A DNA stretch of 49,556 nucleotides from a virus. This document shows positions 2,890 to 48,256 of the stretch, in pieces (the first letter of the stretch is position 1; every line of letters begins with the position of its first letter). The stretch lies in the IMG/VR virus record IMGVR_UViG_3300045612_000264, positions 1 through 49,556 of that record. One strand, given 5' to 3'. The position numbers and the translations under genes are program-made. The notes beneath the pieces were generated by a model that saw only the letters and a list, made by a program, of their open reading frames with translations, searched no databases and was not told where the DNA came from.

Positions 2890-3246
2890 TCACACATTAT
2901 AATTGGAATTCTCTTCTCTTACTATTTTGGAGAAAGGAATGGTCTTAGGAGATTTAGGCGGATGTATTTTCTTCCAACCTTTCTTCATTCCGTTATGTGC
3001 TATTTGAGACATAAAGGCGAAAGGATTGTCAGATTTTTCTGGGTCGTATCTGTTCCAATACTTAAGAAGATCTTCTAAACCAGAGGATATACAATCTTCT
3101 CTGTCTTCATTATCTCTATAAGAATGGGTTTTGGATATCCCTTTTACTATAAGAGTAAACATTTTAACAGTCTCATCTGTTAGACGACCTTTTTCTTTGC
3201 TTTCTAGGAGAGCTCTTTTTAACTCTTTGTTTTTTATGTATATCAT
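2890..3246 (-). CDS. 55: Late-transcription sigma factor, gp55-like
   Basis: 118 aa. The segment DREDCISSGLEDLLKYW, then YDPEKSDNPFAFMSQIAHNG, then KKGWKK is a sigma-70 region 2-type core as seen in T4 gp55, which contains a very similar FDPEKTNNPFAYFTQI stretch. gp55 redirects host RNA polymerase to TATAAATA late promoters with gp33 and the sliding clamp. The protein is shorter than T4 gp55 (185 aa), so the C-terminal clamp-binding tail may be reduced. The start (ATGA) overlaps the stop of the frameshift extension upstream, implying coupling. It is the obvious candidate to read the GATATATA/TATAAATA boxes listed here. Confidence 0.8.
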   Translation of the reverse strand: MIYIKNKELKRALLESKEKGRLTDETVKMFTLIVKGISKTHSYRDNEDREDCISSGLEDLLKYWNRYDPEKSDNPFAFMSQIAHNGMKKGWKKIHPPKSPKTIPFSKIVREENSNYNV

Positions 3247-3494
3247 TCTTGTTGTGGAATATTATTTTGGAGCTTCTCTATCTGTTGTTCTAAATTAACC
3301 CTTAATTCTTCCAAATTTTTCCTAGAATTTCTAATTGTGTCTATACCTATCTTACCGTTTTCTTCACTAGAAGTTTCTAATCCTTTTATTTTTTCTAAAC
3401 AATTTTTCAAATCGTCTAAAACAAAATTGAGTCTATTACCAATTCCCTCGTCTGGGTCTTTGGCAATAGACTCACTTATTGATTGTCTATTTAC
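3243..3494 (-). CDS. -1 frameshift extension of the 772-aa structural protein
   Basis: 83 codons in the -1 frame, starting inside the A9 tract at the very end of the 772-aa gene and ending in an ATGA overlap with the sigma gene. The frame has no ATG, GTG or TTG near its beginning and an in-frame TAA lies a few codons upstream, so it can hardly be an independent gene. It encodes an acidic/lysine-rich coiled coil (for example LNFVLDDLKNCLEKIKGLE and ELRVNLEQQIEKLQNN). The slippery heptamer A-AAA-AAG (3494-3500), directly before the 0-frame UAA, is the classic -1 site of E. coli dnaX. Predicted fusion: 772 + 83 aa. A homopolymer sequencing error is the main alternative. Confidence 0.7.
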   Translation of the reverse strand, partial: VNRQSISESIAKDPDEGIGNRLNFVLDDLKNCLEKIKGLETSSEENGKIGIDTIRNSRKNLEELRVNLEQQIEKLQNNIPQQE

Positions 3495-5809
3495 TTTTTT
3501 TTTGTATTCGGTGCGGAGGAAAGGTTTGCTACTTTATCTTTTTCTGCAAATCTTTTTCCGTTCTTTTTACTGTTTCCGTGAGCATCTGCAAAGTTAAAAT
3601 CATCCTCATCCTCGATAAATTTCTTAGACTTTTCTGATTTACCTTTAGGTGCCTTTTCGATGTGTGAATTTTTTTGACTCTCTTTAAGGGTAGCTAAATT
3701 CATATTCTTAAGGTCTTGAATAAATTTAGCAGATCCTTTTAGGGAAGCACTAGGTGCTTTAGCAAGGTCTAAATTTTCTAAATTATCTAAGAACTTTTTA
3801 CCGCTTCTCCCTTCTCGTTTGCTAGGAAGATTAGCCATGTTAGCAGATTTAGATTTAACACCTCTTCCCGTAAAAGGTGCTGATTTACCACTCTTAGGTA
3901 AACCTGCCATTGTACCTTTCTCATTGTTTATAAACTTAGCGGAAGAACCTGTTTTTTTATCTGGCGCATGTGCCAAGTGTTTTTTAGAAAGAGCTTCTAT
4001 TCTAGAATCTTTGTGAGATCCTCCTCTATTACCTGGGGCATTTGCAAAGTTCTGGTTAGATTCATTAGTGTATTCTAAATCAAGATCCGGTGCTTTAATA
4101 TCATATCTGTCAATTTCGTCTTCTAGATCTTCGACATCCGAAAAGAAATATTCTCCAGTTTTACCTTCCTTAAAAAGAATAGTATAAGTTTTAGAGCTTC
4201 CGTCTACTCCTATCACTCTGCCTTTATTTCCGTTTCTTTTTATTCTAACCTCAGTATCGATTGGATATCCAAGATCCTCGTTAACTGAAGGAACCTCTTT
4301 TGCTCTGTTTTCGAATCTAGAAATTTCAAGATTGATTTGGTTCCATCTATCTTGTAGCGATGAAATTTCATTGTAAATTCCTTCCTCTAATGTGATAAGT
4401 TCTTCAGAGCTAGCAAGCAAAGGATTTTCTCTCTTGGCTAAATCTAATTTTCTAAGCTGATTTTCTAAGATCTCTACGTTTTTAACTATCTCATTTTTGT
4501 CATTTTTCATTACACTTAAGAAAGCCTCTTCTCCTTCTAAGAATTCTGTTAGTGATTCAGAGATATCGTATTTGATAAAGTCTTTAACAATTTTAATTGC
4601 TTGAGTTGCATTTGCTTCGTAGATCTTATTTAATCTCATTGCTGGATTAACTGTTTGAACATAAATACCAGCTTCAGTTTTAAATAGATTAACTTCTACG
4701 TTCTCGTATACTTTAGATTTTATCTTTTTACCAAAATCGATATCAACGATGTCTTCAGCAGATCTAGCTACGAAAACTGCCTTATTGATTTTATGGTTAG
4801 CGCTTTCTAAAAGATTATTAGTGTTAACACTAACTGCAACAGGAAGATCTTCTTCGTTTATTCTTTTACCATCGAAGTAAACCTCTTTAGATTCGTTCGT
4901 AAAAACTATCTCTACCTTATTGTTTCCAATATTTAATAAAATCTTATTATTATCGATTTTTACGTCTCTATCGCTAACTATTTGAGCCTTATTTGCAAGT
5001 TCAGCAGGTATCTCATCCATGTTACATTCTTGAATAATTCCTGATTCGTGATCTATCTTTAAAAATTTATCAGAGGAGTAAAACAATGTCTTATTTTCAT
5101 TAACTGATATAGGTGAATATAAATTATCTATCTTACAAACGCTGTTATCAAAACCTACATGGAATTTGCCACTGCTTTCATTTTCATAAAGAGACAGAAA
5201 GCTAACCAAGTTTCTAACCATTCTATTAAATCCAAAGCTTTTAAGACAATGGATTAAGGTATCGCTTGATTTATTTTCTGCAAGCAACCACGATTTCATT
5301 TGTTTAGTAGCATCAGAAAAAAGTTCCCTTCCTGGTGCATTTTTAATAGATTCATATGTTTTAATAACCTCTATTTCTCTTCTTCTGTTTTCAAAAATTC
5401 TTTCTAAATTTTCTAAAACTGGAACTACTGAATTTTCCCAAGAAAATGATTTAAGGTCGTTTAAAAGTCCTTCTAATACGAAAGCTTCAGAAATTCCTTT
5501 TCCTAATAATAAGTGCTCATATTTTTCTAAAAGTATTTTTCCTGCAGGAAGATCACCTAGAGAAGAATTTTTTAAAGCAGAAACCGTATTAACTAGACCA
5601 AAACTAAAAACAACGTTATTTTTAGGTTGTCCTGAAATATCAAAGTTTTGCGATTCTTTAAGCATTTGAGCTGTTGAGCCCCCAAGGAAAGTAGATGCAA
5701 CAGGTTTTTTTTCTGATCCTAGTCCAGCCCAATCTCTAAGAGAATCTGCGGCATTTCTAGAAGTTTCCATATTTAATCTATTGATCCCCAGATTAATATT
5801 TTTTTCCAT
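3491..5809 (-). CDS. Large structural protein with a repeat-rich basic tail
   Basis: 772 aa, family not recognised. Residues 1-~330 are mixed alpha/beta with a helical segment (FENRRREIEVIKTYESIK). Residues ~440-520 form a coiled coil (VEILENQLRKLDLAKREN; EEGIYNEISSLQDRW), then a small beta domain (EVRIKRNGNKGRVIGVDG) resembling an SH3/KOW-type barrel. From ~residue 590 the tail holds about eight degenerate units of an LAxAP...KGSxKFI pattern (HLAHAPDKKTG, DLAKAPSASLKGSAKFI, MANLPSKREGRSGKKFL). It ends at a -1 slippery site. A late-type box (5828-5836) and an A-rich leader precede the ATG. A virion role is inferred from context. Confidence 0.7.
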   Translation of the reverse strand: MEKNINLGINRLNMETSRNAADSLRDWAGLGSEKKPVASTFLGGSTAQMLKESQNFDISGQPKNNVVFSFGLVNTVSALKNSSLGDLPAGKILLEKYEHLLLGKGISEAFVLEGLLNDLKSFSWENSVVPVLENLERIFENRRREIEVIKTYESIKNAPGRELFSDATKQMKSWLLAENKSSDTLIHCLKSFGFNRMVRNLVSFLSLYENESSGKFHVGFDNSVCKIDNLYSPISVNENKTLFYSSDKFLKIDHESGIIQECNMDEIPAELANKAQIVSDRDVKIDNNKILLNIGNNKVEIVFTNESKEVYFDGKRINEEDLPVAVSVNTNNLLESANHKINKAVFVARSAEDIVDIDFGKKIKSKVYENVEVNLFKTEAGIYVQTVNPAMRLNKIYEANATQAIKIVKDFIKYDISESLTEFLEGEEAFLSVMKNDKNEIVKNVEILENQLRKLDLAKRENPLLASSEELITLEEGIYNEISSLQDRWNQINLEISRFENRAKEVPSVNEDLGYPIDTEVRIKRNGNKGRVIGVDGSSKTYTILFKEGKTGEYFFSDVEDLEDEIDRYDIKAPDLDLEYTNESNQNFANAPGNRGGSHKDSRIEALSKKHLAHAPDKKTGSSAKFINNEKGTMAGLPKSGKSAPFTGRGVKSKSANMANLPSKREGRSGKKFLDNLENLDLAKAPSASLKGSAKFIQDLKNMNLATLKESQKNSHIEKAPKGKSEKSKKFIEDEDDFNFADAHGNSKKNGKRFAEKDKVANLSSAPNTKKK

Positions 5810-37004: not shown

Positions 37005-38069
37005 CTATTTATGAAATCTATCAAACGAATTTTTTGATATTTTATTGAACCGCACTTTGCCAATAAATTCTCCTATAGTAAGACAATCCGTATAACTCAT
37101 TGCAGATTTTAGATAATCTTGAAAATTTTCACACCAACTACTCAATGTGTATTCAACTTGCTGCATTTTATAAATCCCTTCAGATGTTTTTAATTCGGTT
37201 TTACCTAGACTTTTTTGCACATCCTTAGTTGACATTCCTCTAAACTTTTTAAAAAATTTCTTTCCCGCTTCGAACTGTAAAAGAACATAGATTGAATATT
37301 GATCTACCTTATCCCCCGGTTCTTTCCAAGATCCATGATCCTTATTCTCCTCGTATGTTTCTCCACAGCTTTCTAAAGCCTTATTAAATATACTTCCAAG
37401 CATTACATAGTCAGCTCCTAGCGCTAAAGCTTTTATAACATCAGCATATTTCTTGAATCCTCCGTCTGCTACTATTTTAGTTGAAAGGTTTCTTTCTTGT
37501 TGTATCTTAGCAGTTTCATGGATAAGTGATGCCATTGGATATCCTACCCCAGTCTGTACTGTCGTTAAACACCCAGCTCCGTTACCAATCCCCATTCTAA
37601 CATAATCAGCTCCAGCATTAGCTAATGATAAAAACGTATAAGGATTTGCACAATTACCTACCATTATAACTAGGCTTCTCCCATAAATCCCTTTAGACTG
37701 TTCTAACAATTCTTTTACTATATTCATGTGACCGTTAGCTATATCAATTAGGGCATAAGCTTTTTCACCTAATCCTATATTAGCTCTGTTGTTTATGAAT
37801 ATTTTTTTAAAGTCGTCCAATCCATAAGAAAACCAAACTTTTGGATCTATTGAAACGTCTATGAGAGTGTATTCAGTTTTTCTTGGTATAATACTATAAA
37901 TTTTGTTGGAATTAAAAACTAAATAGTTTTCCATGCTAATAACAGTGTCCATCGGAGCAGTAAAAAGGGGAAGCATTTGCTTTTCGTCAAAAACATCCAC
38001 TTTTTTTCTGGATAGTATTCCTGTGTGCATTTCTGGTTCTATGAGTATATCGTCAAAATCAAATAACAT
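37005..38069 (-). CDS. GMP reductase/IMP dehydrogenase family enzyme
   Basis: 354 aa, the length of GMP reductase (about 346) and too short for an IMPDH with CBS domains. Motifs: FDFDDILIEP start, LFTAPMDTVIS, DYVRMGIGNGAGCLTTV with the catalytic Cys loop, TGVGYPMAS (the KTGVGYP form typical of GuaC), TKIVADGGFKKYADVIKALA and DYVMLGSIF, then KFFKKFRGMSTKDVQ (flap-like R/YGMSS). GuaC converts GMP to IMP with NADPH; IMPDH runs the opposite step with NAD+. The lineage is clear and the direction is not certain. It may rebalance purine nucleotides or support base modification. Confidence 0.75.
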   Translation of the reverse strand: MLFDFDDILIEPEMHTGILSRKKVDVFDEKQMLPLFTAPMDTVISMENYLVFNSNKIYSIIPRKTEYTLIDVSIDPKVWFSYGLDDFKKIFINNRANIGLGEKAYALIDIANGHMNIVKELLEQSKGIYGRSLVIMVGNCANPYTFLSLANAGADYVRMGIGNGAGCLTTVQTGVGYPMASLIHETAKIQQERNLSTKIVADGGFKKYADVIKALALGADYVMLGSIFNKALESCGETYEENKDHGSWKEPGDKVDQYSIYVLLQFEAGKKFFKKFRGMSTKDVQKSLGKTELKTSEGIYKMQQVEYTLSSWCENFQDYLKSAMSYTDCLTIGEFIGKVRFNKISKNSFDRFHK

Positions 38070-40243: not shown

Positions 40244-41155
40244 ATGCAAAGAATTAAGCTATTTGAAAGTTTTTCTACCGAGGAACAGGAAATACAAAAG
40301 GTTTACGAGAATTGGTGTAATAAAAATCAATCTCTTATTTCTAGATTATACTCTATAAATGAGGCGGATGAGTACGGAAACGAGGAGGAAGAAACCTTAG
40401 ATTGGCTAGATGATGAGACATTAAGTCCAGGAGAAATGACCGCTTTAGAAAGAGATCTACAAGTAATATCTAAGTCTCAACTTGCCGCTTTATATTTAAA
40501 AGCACTAGGACAACACGAATTTGGTGATCCAGAGAGATTAAGGGGTAGGAGAAGGAGAGAAGAATTGATTAGGGAGGACGTTTATGTTACAAGAATACGA
40601 GGAATAGAAAATTTCTGCAGTGAAGACTACAGTACAGGTAGGCTTTTTATAAGACCTAGCGCTCTTTCTGATGCTATTGGACTAGAATCTTTAGGCACCA
40701 CAACTAGAACAGTTAACAAATTTAGATTGTTAATGGATGGGGAATTCGGTGGAAGATACGATGAAGTTGTTTATAAAAAAATAATAGATGCCTTTAATTA
40801 TTTAAGCAATCAATCAGTAGAGGTAGTACAGAATATAGCTGCAGAGGCAATACAAAATGCTGATGAGTTTACTATGCAAAGATCAAGACTAAAAGAAACT
40901 GGTATTTCAAAAGCTGATTCCCTAGTAATAGGAAAATCTATGTATTCAATTTTTAAAGATTTTTTCAACGAGCCTTTCTTTAAGAAGGATGTATGTAAAA
41001 TCCAAAATATAGTGGTAAAAAAAATGGGGGAAACTAAAAGATTACCAGCGGATCAACTACTTAACTGCTATAAAAATTATCTGATTGATCAAAAAATGCT
41101 AAATAAATTTCACTGGTGTGATCTTTATAAAAAATCAGACTACGGAGTATACTAA
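40244..41155 (+). CDS. Putative internal (capsid-targeted) protein
   Basis: 303 aa from the ATG at 40244; an upstream TTG at 40217 lies inside the promoter box and is rejected. The N-terminus MQRIKLFESFSTEEQEIQK fits the capsid-targeting pattern (compare T4 MKTYQEFIAE). The rest is helical and charged (LSPGEMTALERDLQVISKSQ; RLRGRRRREELIRED), with a C-terminal Cys-containing part (KDVCKIQNIVVKKMGE). No enzymatic motif recognised. It ends 21 nt into the convergent gene at 41135. Lone plus-strand gene with a late-type box. Confidence 0.55.
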   Translation: MQRIKLFESFSTEEQEIQKVYENWCNKNQSLISRLYSINEADEYGNEEEETLDWLDDETLSPGEMTALERDLQVISKSQLAALYLKALGQHEFGDPERLRGRRRREELIREDVYVTRIRGIENFCSEDYSTGRLFIRPSALSDAIGLESLGTTTRTVNKFRLLMDGEFGGRYDEVVYKKIIDAFNYLSNQSVEVVQNIAAEAIQNADEFTMQRSRLKETGISKADSLVIGKSMYSIFKDFFNEPFFKKDVCKIQNIVVKKMGETKRLPADQLLNCYKNYLIDQKMLNKFHWCDLYKKSDYGVY

Positions 41156-41626
41156 TCCAATATAGAAGATTACATGGAGCGCTGCTATGAATAATAAAAA
41201 TTTATAGTGGCGCTTTAAGTATACAAAAGGATTATTACAATCAACATATTTTACTCTCTCATAAAAATATCTACATCGATCAGAATCGGAGAATTCAAAG
41301 TTCATTCCAGTCCTATCTAAAAGATCCGAATTTTCTTTAGCCTCCCAATTGTAATGTATCTCATCTATCATACACATTTCTAGTACTGTTTCCCTAGTTA
41401 ATATTATTCTCCGATGTTCGGCAATAAGAATAAATGAAAAAATAGGGGCTAAAAAATAAGTTCCCAAGAAGTATTCTAATGTAGAAGAAAAAAGTATTAG
41501 AAACGAATAAAATACTATGCTTGATTTTTTAGTGGTAAAGAACACAGGGATTGAACCAAACATCATAGAGGTTTCCTCACATTCGTTGTACAGCGACACG
41601 TAAAAATCTTCTGATTTATCTAACAT
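41135..41626 (-). CDS. Membrane protein under host-type promoter
   Basis: 163 aa from the ATG at 41626 (MLDKSEDFYVSLYNECEE). The frame is open to an ATG at 41686, but that lies upstream of the promoter at 41647-41684. Membrane helices: VFYSFLILFSSTLEYFLG, YFLAPIFSFILIAEHRR and, at the end, YKFLLFIAALHVIFYIGLVY. A cytosolic segment with MCMIDEIHYNWEAKENSD separates them. Function unknown; expression is probably early. Confidence 0.6.
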   Translation of the reverse strand: MLDKSEDFYVSLYNECEETSMMFGSIPVFFTTKKSSIVFYSFLILFSSTLEYFLGTYFLAPIFSFILIAEHRRIILTRETVLEMCMIDEIHYNWEAKENSDLLDRTGMNFEFSDSDRCRYFYERVKYVDCNNPFVYLKRHYKFLLFIAALHVIFYIGLVYSVV

Positions 41627-41646
41627 TTTAATTAATTTTTGTTTTA

Positions 41647-41684
41647 CAAAGATAGAAATTGCCAAAGAATATAAAAAATGATTC
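41647..41684 (-). promoter_or_regulatory. Host-type early promoter P3
   Basis: GAATCATTTTTT-18 nt-TATCTTTG-TAAAACAA on the minus strand, 21 nt before the ATG at 41626. Confidence 0.65.
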
Positions 41685-41773
41685 ACTCCCTTATTTCAAA
41701 AAATTAATGATTTTATCTTTTATACCACACTGCTTATCTTTAAATACGAGTTTCTCAAGGGTACCAGTTGTAG

Positions 41774-42187: not shown

Positions 42188-42189
42188 TG

Positions 42190-42261
42190 TAGGTCCACCT
42201 GGACTCGAACCAGGAATACAAGCTTAGAAGGCTAGGGTTATATCCCTTTAACTATGGACCC
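42190..42261 (-). tRNA. tRNA-Arg (UCU)
   Basis: 72 nt. Acceptor GGGTCCA/TGGACCT, anticodon loop CTTCTAA (TCT), T arm CCTGG-TTCGAGT-CCAGG. Reads AGA, a codon favoured by AT-rich genes. Confidence 0.88.
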
Positions 42262-42266
42262 ATGAG

Positions 42267-42354
42267 CGGAGGATGTAGGACTCGAATCTACACATCGTTT
42301 GCACGATGAATAGTTTTCAAGACTGCGCCAGTACCAATTATGGTTTAATCCTCC
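42267..42354 (-). tRNA. tRNA-Ser (UGA)
   Basis: 88 nt. Acceptor GGAGGAT/ATCCTCC (7 bp), anticodon loop CTTGAAA (TGA), long variable arm CATCG-tgcaaa-CGATG, T arm around TTCGAGT, discriminator G. First tRNA of the upstream group. Confidence 0.88.
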
Positions 42355-42375
42355 TTATAATTTTATTTAACCAAT

Positions 42376-42556: not shown

Positions 42557-42594
42557 CAAATATAGGCTATTTTTATTGATACAAAAAATGATTC
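42557..42594 (-). promoter_or_regulatory. Host-type early promoter P2
   Basis: GAATCATTTTTT-18 nt-TATATTTG-TGAAACAA on the minus strand. Nearly identical flanks to P1. It is divergent from the rhomboid gene. Confidence 0.65.
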
Positions 42595-42651
42595 GTAATC
42601 TTTTTTTGTATTTTTCACTTTTTTCTATAATTGCATAACAAAACAAATATT

Positions 42652-43227
42652 ATGAAAGATAATTTAAGAAGATCCGCGATAGAGACATTAAAAATTATAG
42701 GCGTATGCGTACTCGCTTATCCGGTGGGATTAATTACTATGCTAATCCTAGGAGGAAATGCAGATCTTGCTATATCTATGCCTTTTATTAGTGGATTTAT
42801 ACACCAATCTCTATTACATTTTGTTTTTAATATTATTGCTATATTTCTTTTTCTTCTATATAAAGGAAATAAATATGATTTAAAACAAATAGTTTTGATA
42901 ACTATAATAATCCAGTGTATTACTTTTTTACTTACGTGTGCATTAGGAATATCAGTATCTATTGGTATATCAGGACTGGTTTATCTTATGCTTACTAGAT
43001 TTCTATTAGATTATAGAAAGATATTTATACCAATTTTAGCTATAATAGGTTTAGGAGAGCTTGTTACACTAAATGACCCCGATGGAGTATCACACTGGGG
43101 TCATTTAATAGGTATATTCTTGGGGATTTTTTCCCTAGGACATCTTAATATTGCGATCCAAAAACTTCTAAATCGTAATCATCGTATGATTCAACTGGTA
43201 CATAATATTTTTGTCCCTCAACAATAA
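42652..43227 (+). CDS. Rhomboid-family intramembrane serine protease
   Basis: 191 aa from the ATG at 42652 (MKDNLRRSAIETLK). About six hydrophobic helices. The rhomboid signature is complete: H51-QSLL-H56-FVF-N60 in TM2, G105-I-S107-G-L-V-Y in TM4 with the catalytic Ser in GxSG, and H151-LI-G154-IFL-G158 in the last helix as the catalytic His with the HxxGxxxG packing motif. Rhomboids cleave membrane proteins inside the bilayer. It converges on, and overlaps by 83 nt, the Ala-rich gene at 43145. A host membrane protein (superinfection exclusion or signalling) is a likely target; this is inference. Confidence 0.8.
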   Translation: MKDNLRRSAIETLKIIGVCVLAYPVGLITMLILGGNADLAISMPFISGFIHQSLLHFVFNIIAIFLFLLYKGNKYDLKQIVLITIIIQCITFLLTCALGISVSIGISGLVYLMLTRFLLDYRKIFIPILAIIGLGELVTLNDPDGVSHWGHLIGIFLGIFSLGHLNIAIQKLLNRNHRMIQLVHNIFVPQQ

Positions 43228-44299
43228 TATACGATTCGAATATATCTTCGGATGTTCCTTGGTAAATCTCATGATCCCAAATACCCCCCCATATAGCGGA
43301 TCCAATTGAAAGTATTTCTTTTCCTGTGTTAACAATTTTGTTCTGAGCTGTCTTAAGAGCATTACCAGCCGCAGTTTTTATCTTGTTAGCAACTTTTTCA
43401 GTTTTTTGAACTCCAGCTTTAATTGTGTTTGCTACTGCGTCAAATCCATCTTTTGTTGTTTTTACAATAGCATCCTTATTTTTTTTAAATGAAGATACCG
43501 AAGCATTATAAAAATCTGAAATGTCGTTTCCTATTTTAATTGCTATCATTTTAGCTGCTTTAGCTGCTCCGTATATACATTCTGCTGCAAAATTAGCAAT
43601 TCCTTTAAAAGCTGTTTTAGCTATTTTGTAAGCTGCAACTGTTAAAGCTGCAACTGCTTGAAATGCTTTAGTTGCTAAATTAGCAACTTTGTATAAGCCT
43701 GTCATAAAAGCTTTAGCTACTGCTAAGGCATCATTTTTAATTGTATTAAATACTGCTTTACCTAATTTTTTAAAGTAATCATTAACATTTTTCATTGCAG
43801 TAACAATAGTAGATCCTACTGCCATAGCTCCTTTCTTAGCATATCCAAATATTGATGATGCTAATGAAAATAATCCATTAGCAATTGCTTCTGTTACAAC
43901 ATAAATACCTGCAGCAGTAAATATAACGACCTTTCCTGTAAATTTTGCTAGGTTTAGTAATGCCTCTCCGGTAGAAACTGAAACTTTTTTCCGAGCCTCA
44001 GCATAAGCTTTCATACCAGCTCCGATAGTAAGAAATGTGTACCGAGCTCCTTGTATAACTGCAGTTTTTACGGCTTTAACTGTATTGTACACGTTCTTAT
44101 CGTTAACATCAAATAATCCGCCTTTTACAGTGTTTCCTGCTGGACCTTGTTCGTAAATGGCATCGTTAATAAATGATAACATTTCAGATTCTGTTAATTC
44201 AACGTAACTTGAATGGTTCTCGAAATTATATTCGCTGCTGTTAAAGCTATAACCCTCGTTTAGTTCGTTGAAATCGCTAAATGATAGTATTCTTGACAT
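43145..44299 (-). CDS. Putative internal protein, Ala-rich amphipathic helices
   Basis: 384 aa. The N-terminus MSRILSFSDFNELNEGYS fits the capsid-targeting pattern with an L-x-E-G cleavage-like site. The body is a series of Ala/Gly-rich helices (KVVIFTAAGIYVVTEAIANG; LFSLASSIFGYAKKGAMAVG; VANLATKAFQAVAALTVAAY; KMIAIKIGNDISDFYN), suited to membranes or bundles. The C-terminus is short and beta/acidic (GQKYYVPVESYDDYDLEV). Collinear with the 310-aa gene upstream, so a tandem duplication. A late-type box lies at 44320. Confidence 0.6.
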   Translation of the reverse strand: MSRILSFSDFNELNEGYSFNSSEYNFENHSSYVELTESEMLSFINDAIYEQGPAGNTVKGGLFDVNDKNVYNTVKAVKTAVIQGARYTFLTIGAGMKAYAEARKKVSVSTGEALLNLAKFTGKVVIFTAAGIYVVTEAIANGLFSLASSIFGYAKKGAMAVGSTIVTAMKNVNDYFKKLGKAVFNTIKNDALAVAKAFMTGLYKVANLATKAFQAVAALTVAAYKIAKTAFKGIANFAAECIYGAAKAAKMIAIKIGNDISDFYNASVSSFKKNKDAIVKTTKDGFDAVANTIKAGVQKTEKVANKIKTAAGNALKTAQNKIVNTGKEILSIGSAIWGGIWDHEIYQGTSEDIFESYIIVEGQKYYVPVESYDDYDLEVFGSQY

Positions 44300-44319
44300 T
44301 TTGTTTTTTTATTTATAAT

Positions 44320-44329
44320 GTATATATCC
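44320..44329 (-). promoter_or_regulatory. Late-type promoter box GGATATATAC
   Basis: GGATATATACATTATAAATAAA on the minus strand, 21-30 nt before the ATG at 44299. It contains both a GATATATA and a TATAAATA element. Confidence 0.55.
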
Positions 44330-45261
44330 TAATTGGTTTTTTTTTTCTTTCCGCTTATAGAATCCCAAATAGGTTTGCTTTTAGATAATATGATTTTTGC
44401 AGTGGGTGCTATTCTATTTTGTAATTTCCTTAATGACTCTCCAGCTTCTTTTCTAAGTCTTGCTGAAAATATCTCGGTCTTTCTTACTCCCTTTTCTATT
44501 ACAGAAGAAAGCTTTTCTATTCCCTCCTCTATTGTTTTATTTATAGGAACGTTTAGATTGTCTAGGGTATTTTGTGACACCTTATAAAAATCATCTATTC
44601 CCTGTCCTATATTTACAGATCTTATTTCTGAGTCTTTCGCTGTTTTATAAATACAATCATTTAAAAAATCTGGTATTGTTTTAAATGATGATGTCGATGA
44701 TTTATATGCTCCAACTACTAGAACAGATACAGCTTCTGAAGCTTTAGGAGATTCTTCCGATAGCTTATAAAGGTCCTTCATAATGATTTTAAAAATCTCA
44801 GATGAATTTTCTTTAATATTATTAAAAGTCTCTTCTCCCTTATTTTTGTAATAGATGTTTATTTTTTTAAAGGTATAAATAACGCTAATTCCAGCGGTTA
44901 TAGATCCTTCCTTTACATAAGAAAATATAGATGAAGCCATAGTTATAATACCATTACCTGCAGCTTCAGACATAACATATATTCCAGAATCAGAGAAAAC
45001 AAGAGTTTGGTCTTTTTTAGAAGCCATCTTTGAAATTATGTCCCCTATTTTTTTATCTGTCTTAGCTACAGATTCTGCGTAAGTGCTCATACCGCTACCT
45101 ACACATATAAATGTATATTCCTTCCCGTTGATAGTTGCAGTTCTTAAATCTTTTATTGTTTGATATGCTAGATTATTTTCTAGATCGAAAATGGCAGATT
45201 TACTTTCTGTAACCTCTGCTTCAAAAAGAGAAAATTCTTTAAAATCTAGTATTTTTTCCAT
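44329..45261 (-). CDS. Putative internal protein, paralogue of the Ala-rich gene
   Basis: 310 aa. The targeting-like start MEKILDFKEFSLFEAEVTES has an L-F-E-A site of the (L/I)-x-E-(A/G) type cut by T4 prohead protease. It aligns throughout with the 384-aa protein (EYTFICVGSGMSTYAE with RYTFLTIGAGMKAYAE; SGIYVMSEAAGNGIITMASS with AGIYVVTEAIANGLFSLASS; IGQGIDDFYKVS with IGNDISDFYNAS). Many Ala are replaced by Ser/Thr/charged residues, so it is less hydrophobic. It lacks the C-terminal beta tail and ends in a KKKK tail. Confidence 0.6.
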   Translation of the reverse strand: MEKILDFKEFSLFEAEVTESKSAIFDLENNLAYQTIKDLRTATINGKEYTFICVGSGMSTYAESVAKTDKKIGDIISKMASKKDQTLVFSDSGIYVMSEAAGNGIITMASSIFSYVKEGSITAGISVIYTFKKINIYYKNKGEETFNNIKENSSEIFKIIMKDLYKLSEESPKASEAVSVLVVGAYKSSTSSFKTIPDFLNDCIYKTAKDSEIRSVNIGQGIDDFYKVSQNTLDNLNVPINKTIEEGIEKLSSVIEKGVRKTEIFSARLRKEAGESLRKLQNRIAPTAKIILSKSKPIWDSISGKKKKTN

Positions 45262-46630: not shown

Positions 46631-48256
46631 TTAAGATTCTATAGAATCCCAAGCTTCTATTATGGCGTTAGCAAATAATGGCTCTTTTCCCGTCCAGCCA
46701 GCTAATATAGCACCTCTATAAAGATTTTCTGGTAGAACTGTGTTGTTGTATCCCGCAACTTGAACAGTGAAAACATTAACCTTAGGATTAACTGTTCTTC
46801 TATATTCCTGCACCATTGCCAGTACGTCTACATGAACGTCACCTTTACCACTATGCCCATAAGGTGAACTTCCTACTGTATTGCTGTGTCCATATAGCCC
46901 ACCGTGTCCAGCCTGCATATCCGAGTAGATAAAAACGTTATCATAATGGACTTTATTTTTTATAGCTTCGTCCCAGAAAATCCAAATTCCATTTTCTGTT
47001 CCGCCCCCTTGTTGTCTTCCCCTCTCAGACGTTTCCTCTAATTGTGTGAGTATACCATTTCTTTTAGAAACTTCTTTTAATGAAAGATTGTCACCAAATA
47101 CTCCTACAATACCTTCATCGGATTGTAAAGCAGTTGTTAATGATGAAAGGTTAGCTATTTCCGCCACAGTAACCGCTCCATATTCGCTATTGAAAGATCC
47201 CCAAGCAGATCCGGAGTTGTCGGAAAGACAAGCAGTTTTCCCTTTTAATTTAGGCATATTAGTTACTGAAATATCTAAACACTCCTCCAGAGTATCAAGA
47301 ACAAGCTGCTTGTGGTGTATATCCGAATTTTGTACTGCCTTAAAGGCTGACCAATATCTAAATGGAAATTGTTTTCCACTTTCAACACCGGATTTTAATT
47401 GGGATAAGATTCTCGCTGTAATTGTACGATCTTCTACCTCAGTAAATATACCTCTGAGGTTTCTTAACAAGGCCATATGAGGGATAAGAATTGTATCCGT
47501 TATTTCCTTCCATGTTTTTCCTTCGGATCTTAGGGTTTCCCAGGTTTTTTCAGTCTCTTTTAATTTTAATGTACCAGTGGACATTAACTCATTAATGTCC
47601 TCTCCTTTTGCGTGAGATATACGTACAAGGTCTATTAGTCTTTTCCCTTTGTACTTATTTAATTGATATCTGCTAAATTCACCAAGTTTTTCTGCCCATG
47701 TTCTTTTAACTAAAGAAGAAAGGCCCTTTTTACCCGCATTCTTGTACATATAGTACTCAAATTGATTTGTTAAATCATCAGGTCTAAGCGAAATACTCTT
47801 ACCCACATTTTTCATGTATCCTGGGTTACTCTCGTTAAACCCTGTTCTGTTGCTGTGCTGTGATGCTCTTATGAATATAAACGCAGGATTAAGTCTCATA
47901 AAGAATTTATTTCTTAATTCTAAAGCAAGATCTAGGGTTTCTTTAAAGTCATAGTCAAGGGCAGAGTCTATCGCATTTTCAAAAATTTCAACAGAGGTTA
48001 AATCCGATTTATACATCGGGGAAAATATTGAGTATTTAGAAAGGGTGCTAAGATTACTAGGCGCTTTTAGTCCGTCACGGTAATATTGCGGTTCTCCAAA
48101 TATAGAGGAAGCCGCTACAATTCTTAATCTGTCTAGTGGATTGATCTCATAGGATGTTCCCCCCATAAAGTTCTCCACTGCAAAAGATCCATAAACTGAA
48201 TTCTGCGCAATTTGCGTTGCTGTTTTTTTATCTGCGTAATTACTCAACTTTGACAT
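46631..48256 (-). CDS. Ro60/TROVE-domain RNA-binding protein (Rsr-like)
   Basis: 541 aa, the length of human Ro60 (538) and bacterial Rsr. Residues ~15-340 form the helical TROVE ring; typical pieces are LDRLRIVAASSIFGEPQYYR, ALELRNKFFMRLNPAFIF and HMALLRNLRGIF (the LLRNL signature). Residues ~341-541 are the von Willebrand A domain with an intact MIDAS: CLSDNSGSAWGS (D346-x-S348-x-S350), a Thr/Asp site near VGVFGDN, and FIYSDMQAG. Ro binds misfolded RNA ends in its ring and Y RNA on its outer edge; bacterial Rsr works with PNPase. Three Y-RNA-like repeats lie directly upstream on the same strand. No residues look lost. Confidence 0.92.
   Translation of the reverse strand: MSKLSNYADKKTATQIAQNSVYGSFAVENFMGGTSYEINPLDRLRIVAASSIFGEPQYYRDGLKAPSNLSTLSKYSIFSPMYKSDLTSVEIFENAIDSALDYDFKETLDLALELRNKFFMRLNPAFIFIRASQHSNRTGFNESNPGYMKNVGKSISLRPDDLTNQFEYYMYKNAGKKGLSSLVKRTWAEKLGEFSRYQLNKYKGKRLIDLVRISHAKGEDINELMSTGTLKLKETEKTWETLRSEGKTWKEITDTILIPHMALLRNLRGIFTEVEDRTITARILSQLKSGVESGKQFPFRYWSAFKAVQNSDIHHKQLVLDTLEECLDISVTNMPKLKGKTACLSDNSGSAWGSFNSEYGAVTVAEIANLSSLTTALQSDEGIVGVFGDNLSLKEVSKRNGILTQLEETSERGRQQGGGTENGIWIFWDEAIKNKVHYDNVFIYSDMQAGHGGLYGHSNTVGSSPYGHSGKGDVHVDVLAMVQEYRRTVNPKVNVFTVQVAGYNNTVLPENLYRGAILAGWTGKEPLFANAIIEAWDSIES

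Follow-up and report, generated by a model that had tools for sequence, protein, structure and literature searches.

Phage-encoded rhomboids have been reported before. Published work on phages DLP3 and DLP5 describes DLP3 gp93 as a rhomboid membrane protein, and the authors place the rhomboid membrane protein of DLP5, a temperate siphovirus, among the moron genes (PMC7326821, PMC5834331). The literature searched yielded no experiment on a phage-encoded rhomboid, and phage rhomboids have so far been recorded as moron genes with no assigned role. A tblastn search with the DLP3 rhomboid returned five records, namely DLP3, DLP5 (two records), Summit and a weak match in the huge phage LR756504. The Pfam family PF01694 was found in four of 12 phage records (DLP3, LR756504, LR745206 and LR756502), a set in which DLP3 was included as already known and LR756504 because of its tblastn match. 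The huge-phage rhomboids are unannotated (LR745206 497883-498305, LR756502 512627-513043 and LR756504 466097-466522; 74-124 bits). Further rhomboids occur in IMG/VR contigs, which we term viral contigs rather than confirmed phages because a terminase (phrog_2) was found in only two of 17 such records. At positions 2941-3633 of locus L138, a rhomboid frame contains one internal stop and is either a decayed gene or one with a recoded stop codon.

The gene studied here lies in a 49,556-base IMG/VR record (the window, that is, the whole stretch of DNA analysed). An earlier note on this DNA, made from the sequence, called intramembrane proteases rare in phages. This is a fair statement, but the find is not new in kind, given the annotated rhomboids of DLP3, DLP5 and Summit and the PF01694 matches in three huge phages. 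Phage rhomboids are of a known kind, and the window copy is a divergent member of it with shortened loops. It shares with Escherichia coli GlpG a core of six transmembrane (TM) segments and the HxxxxHxxxN, GxSG and HxxGxxxG motifs, aligned residue by residue, but is only 18% identical to it (alignment A8) and lacks the cytosolic N-terminal domain. The rhomboids of DLP3 (gp93), DLP5 and Summit resemble it as short phage rhomboids with a Ser-His dyad in an accessory region; however, they are 21% identical to it (A8), have sugar-modifying genes rather than tagged cargo genes as neighbours, and lack a convergent partner. Those of LR745206, LR756502 and LR756504 occur, like that of the window, in phages with a related tail sheath and terminase, but are canonical (74-124 bits against 34.5 for the window protein in the same search) and 16-24% identical to it. 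Rhombosortase (TIGR03902) offers the likeness of a rhomboid dedicated to partner substrates, although the 384-aa partner described below has, by eye, no GlyGly-CTERM-like C-terminus. The internal proteins of phage T4 resemble the neighbours of the rhomboid rather than the rhomboid itself, forming a variable set with one common N-terminal tag; this likeness is judged by eye, and the rhomboid carries no tag.

What is new in this analysis is that the rhomboid is part of a swappable two-gene cassette with natural empty sites. A minimal two-gene unit, together with empty sites in near relatives, provides a comparison with and without the genes and one specific partner, which makes the role of phage intramembrane proteases directly testable.

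Table 1. Features at the rhomboid locus, with positions in the window.
Feature	Position	Strand	Remarks
tRNA-Ser(UGA)-like sequence, left border	42271..42356	-	ARAGORN calls in relatives, sequence reading
Cassette of rhomboid and 384-aa gene	42594..44328	.	About 1.73 kb; site alignment
Rhomboid leader inside cassette	42594..42651	+	Sequence reading
Rhomboid intramembrane serine protease gene	42652..43227	+	191 aa and stop; translation, PF01694, GlpG alignment, hydropathy
Tail-to-tail coding overlap of rhomboid and 384-aa genes	43145..43227	.	83 nt
384-aa cassette partner	43145..44299	-	Ala-rich, Lys-rich; N-terminal tag MSRILSFSDF; paralogue of 310-aa protein
310-aa paralogue, right border of cassette site	44329..45261	-	N-terminal tag MEKILDFKEF

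The rhomboid gene and its product

The earlier note had described a membrane protein with a full set of rhomboid motifs, and all of them were found in the translation: HQSLLHFVFN (H51, H56 and N60), GISG (S107) and HLIGIFLG (H151, G154 and G158). A profile search, proposed there as a check that would refute the identification if it returned no rhomboid, matched PF01694 over residues 47-160 (E 1.3e-8; 35.6 bits, the curated cut-off being 22.6), so that the motif set is beyond chance. The copy in the related record G003 also scores above this cut-off (29.0 bits). When the protein is aligned with E. coli GlpG (MG1655 record) and other rhomboids, S107, H151, H56, N60, H51, G105 and Y111 correspond to S201, H254, H150, N154, H145, G199 and Y205 of GlpG. 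Eleven columns, among them those of H51, H56, N60, G105, S107 and H151, are invariant across the 16 rows of alignment A7, which omits L138 (stop in frame), L126-L128 and duplicates from the same or nearly identical records. The window gene almost certainly encodes a rhomboid-family protein, and to judge from its residues this protein is very probably an active protease.

Hydropathy indicates six TM segments, and helices are also present in the predicted structure. Lysine and arginine residues, counted by eye along the tails and loops, alternate as 4/0/3/0/3/0/3, which would put the N- and C-terminus inside the cell and the dyad on the periplasmic side, the arrangement of GlpG. The TM1-TM2 and TM4-TM5 loops are shorter than in the aligned rhomboids, which may affect gating or activity. 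The GlpG equivalog models TIGR04239 and NF008155 gave no match at E 0.1, and rhombosortase TIGR03902 scored 14.0 bits, below its cut-off of 84. No PHROG family was found for the rhomboid at E 0.001 and chance-level rows only at E 10, while PADLOC returned nothing for it.

The predicted fold backs the rhomboid identity more weakly, and is supportive rather than decisive. AlphaFold2 (AF2) gave a poor model with two sequences (pLDDT 45.9) and a better one with the 16 rows of A7 (pLDDT 74.5, pTM 0.66), which is tied to the sequence argument because these rows were picked as rhomboids. The best 31 of 39 Foldseek rows were all GlpG, but the statistics were weak (best E 0.046, probability 0.99, TM about 0.44, rmsd 7.9 A). 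In VIA-align, rows 1-32 were GlpG, with an rmsd of 4.9 A over 148 residues and a Z of up to 8.7, a value under the tool's own safe level for helical bundles; rows 33-35 were Derlin-1 and iRhom1, followed by the unrelated LTC4 synthase at Z 5.0. The best matches in a viral structure library were an unnamed protein, a Megaviridae rhomboid and a Siphoviridae rhomboid.

Two copies of the window-type subfamily were found, in the window and in G003; they are 73% identical, and the G003 copy keeps every catalytic residue. Over the 159 codons outside the overlap with the 384-aa gene, dN/dS between them is 0.196 (NG86) or 0.089 (YN00), and differences amount to 42% at codon position 3 and 6% at position 2. 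This substitution pattern marks the rhomboid as a genuine gene maintained by purifying selection. Across the 26 rhomboid codons of the overlap, position 2 differs most (31%), against 8% at position 1 and 4% at position 3, which is what constraint on the opposing 384-aa frame would produce. The rhomboid's C-terminal tail is thus probably not critical.

The cassette and its site

The cassette site lies between a tRNA array and the paralogous 310-aa gene (Table 1). The 384-aa gene is convergent with the rhomboid gene, which terminates within the 3' end of the former, and because of this physical overlap neither gene can be moved alone without damage. Five records are informative by having a 310-type gene at the site border (window, G003, G064, G010 and G002). 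Both cassette genes are present in two of them (window and G003), neither in three, and one alone in none. In G064 and G002 the site is cleanly empty; in a close relative, only a few bases separate the stop codon of the 310-type gene from the flank homologous to positions up to 42593. G010 has another gene at the site, encoding 163 aa and starting with the N-terminal tag of the neighbours.

The distribution is patchy even among close relatives. The TROVE-domain protein of G064, which is without the cassette, is 96.1% identical to that of the window, and the protein of G003, which has the cassette, is 81.1% identical to it; by the same protein, G003 is in turn 92.6% identical to G002, which is without the cassette. 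Presence and absence thus flip inside two close pairs. Between the window and G003, the rhomboids (73%) and the 384-aa proteins (80%) are about as similar as the backbone, which would fit either an old presence with losses or recombination between relatives. We regard it as highly probable that the rhomboid and the 384-aa gene are an accessory two-gene unit.

PF01694 was found in one of 46 related virus records (G003), a count that says little on frequency, as most of these records are fragments that do not span the site. The 46 records comprise 45 of a set of 78 loci and one more, the other 33 loci (mostly short contigs) being outside the PF01694 search. With the rhomboid protein as the query, tblastn returned nothing from phages at E 0.1 or E 10 and nothing from plasmids at E 0.1; we do not read this as absence, since the low-complexity filter of BLAST acting on a hydrophobic query is a likely cause. 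Genome contigs scanned by back-translation, with either the single protein or a two-row alignment, yielded no relative, and the single-protein scan missed even the G003 copy in the viral contigs.

At the left border, the tRNA-Ser(UGA)-like sequence received no ARAGORN call in the window, although relatives have one at this position, and it adjoins a tRNA-Arg at 42189-42261. The arrays of G010 (L165) and G002 (L166) hold 26 and 27 tRNA genes and are broken up by small genes, several of which carry a tag of the MKHIxxFExF type, marking a variable accessory region. Within the leader of the rhomboid, TTTG (42605-42608) is followed after 17 bases by TATAATTG (42626-42633). These elements resemble the Bacteroidota promoter, TTTG-N-TAnnTTTG, and serve as a lead only. 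A generic sigma-70 scan gave 11 sites against 10.4 in shuffles and supports no promoter.

The 384-aa partner and the tagged neighbours

Among the 85 ORFs of the window (ATG ORFs of at least 50 codons), six start with the tag M-x-x-I-x-x-F/Y-E-x-F, all at 40.2-46.6 kb, and the pattern occurs at one of 208 internal methionines; it was devised after the tagged genes had been seen, and these counts are descriptive. The internal proteins of T-even phages are reported to be diverse defence proteins with only a capsid targeting sequence in common, and those of T4 to counter host restriction (PMC3012670). By analogy, the tagged neighbourhood may be a cargo island and the 384-aa partner a putative capsid-cargo protein. 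The earlier note had placed the rhomboid itself among putative injected proteins, a description that may suit the neighbours, given their common tag, but is not supported for the rhomboid. Since the latter has no tag and is encoded on the other strand, its synthesis probably takes place in the infected cell.

The 384-aa partner also gave matches to PHROG tape-measure families (best 1.8e-7) and, in PADLOC, to ZorA (0.0017). Both cover its helical, Ala/Lys-rich middle and were treated as compositional.

Role of the rhomboid

We consider the best explanation overall, with a probability of roughly 0.6, to be an active GlpG-like rhomboid that is encoded by an accessory cassette gene, is made in the infected cell and acts there on one or a few TM proteins. 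From the sequence, S107 would be the nucleophile and H151 its partner, H56 and N60 would form the oxyanion site, and the active site would open towards the periplasm. The gene would be gained or lost as part of a compact cassette with the putative capsid-cargo protein. Its product would most likely be synthesised in the infected cell and put into the inner membrane, where it may cut one or a few proteins within a TM segment. As substrate we favour a host membrane protein, such as a surface, receptor-assembly or defence component, since the gene can be dispensed with, is patchy in distribution and lies in a variable accessory region. This choice is tentative, with odds slightly short of even, and the variable location favours an accessory or conflict function in general terms only.

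The main rival explanation, which we regard as unlikely, is that the substrate is the 384-aa partner, which would be trimmed or disarmed. It could be cut after membrane insertion, conferring tolerance on the producing or newly infected cell, or it could be matured before packaging. The two genes are inherited as a pair, all five records with the site holding both or neither, and the most hydrophobic stretch of the partner, VVIFTAAGIYVVTEAIANG, is rich in small residues and more hydrophobic than that of the paralogue (maximum of the mean KD over 19 residues 1.57 for the window copy and 1.66 for the G003 copy, against 1.01). However, given the 83-nt antisense overlap the co-inheritance could be purely physical, the comparison comprises five records, and the hydrophobicity of this stretch is marginal for a TM segment. 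The recognition pattern reported for rhomboid substrates, a small P1 with large hydrophobic P4 and P2' residues (PMC2941825), has 21 matches in the partner against a shuffled mean of 13, which is not diagnostic.

A more speculative coupling of the two genes, to which we give a slim chance, is a protease-cargo pair. The 384-aa protein, ejected along with the DNA, would be membrane-active and pass into the next host, and a rhomboid made in the cell would cut it in the membrane; the cut would arm the protein, or disable it and so spare the producing cell. The literature searched described no phage system with a virion-borne effector under the control of an intramembrane protease.

General membrane-protein quality control, with the phage rhomboid removing orphan or damaged membrane proteins during infection, is similarly improbable. 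Such a role has been reported for bacterial rhomboids, including YqgP of Bacillus subtilis together with FtsH (PMC7232013, PMC7231995), and rhomboids are present in unrelated phages. Yet bacteria have rhomboids of their own (PF01694 in 14/14 control genomes), so that the benefit is not obvious, and a gene present in some close relatives and absent from others points to a conditional role more than to housekeeping. A rhomboid-like protein without catalysis, binding or sequestering TM proteins in the manner of iRhom or Derlin, would accord with Derlin-1 and iRhom1 among the structural matches (Z 6.5 and 6.2) and with the shortened loops round the active site, but is very unlikely, as all catalytic and oxyanion residues are intact, conserved in both copies and under purifying selection.

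The phage and other genes of the window

The window contains tail sheath, terminase, UvsX, DnaB-like and SbcCD-like genes. Its sheath and terminase are closest to those of Flavobacterium phage MaF61, Lak phages, Tenacibaculum phages and huge metagenomic phages, and the host is presumably a member of the Bacteroidota. An IMP dehydrogenase/GMP reductase-like gene at 37005-38069 on the minus strand (PF00478, E 1.1e-37) adjoins a thymidylate synthase-like gene. In the tRNA region, a minus-strand gene at 41135-41686 encodes a small membrane protein without a family, which has no match in the G003 region. The TROVE-domain (Ro-like) RNA-binding protein is encoded at 46631-48256 on the minus strand (PF05731, 33.4 bits) and is found in 14 of the 46 related records.
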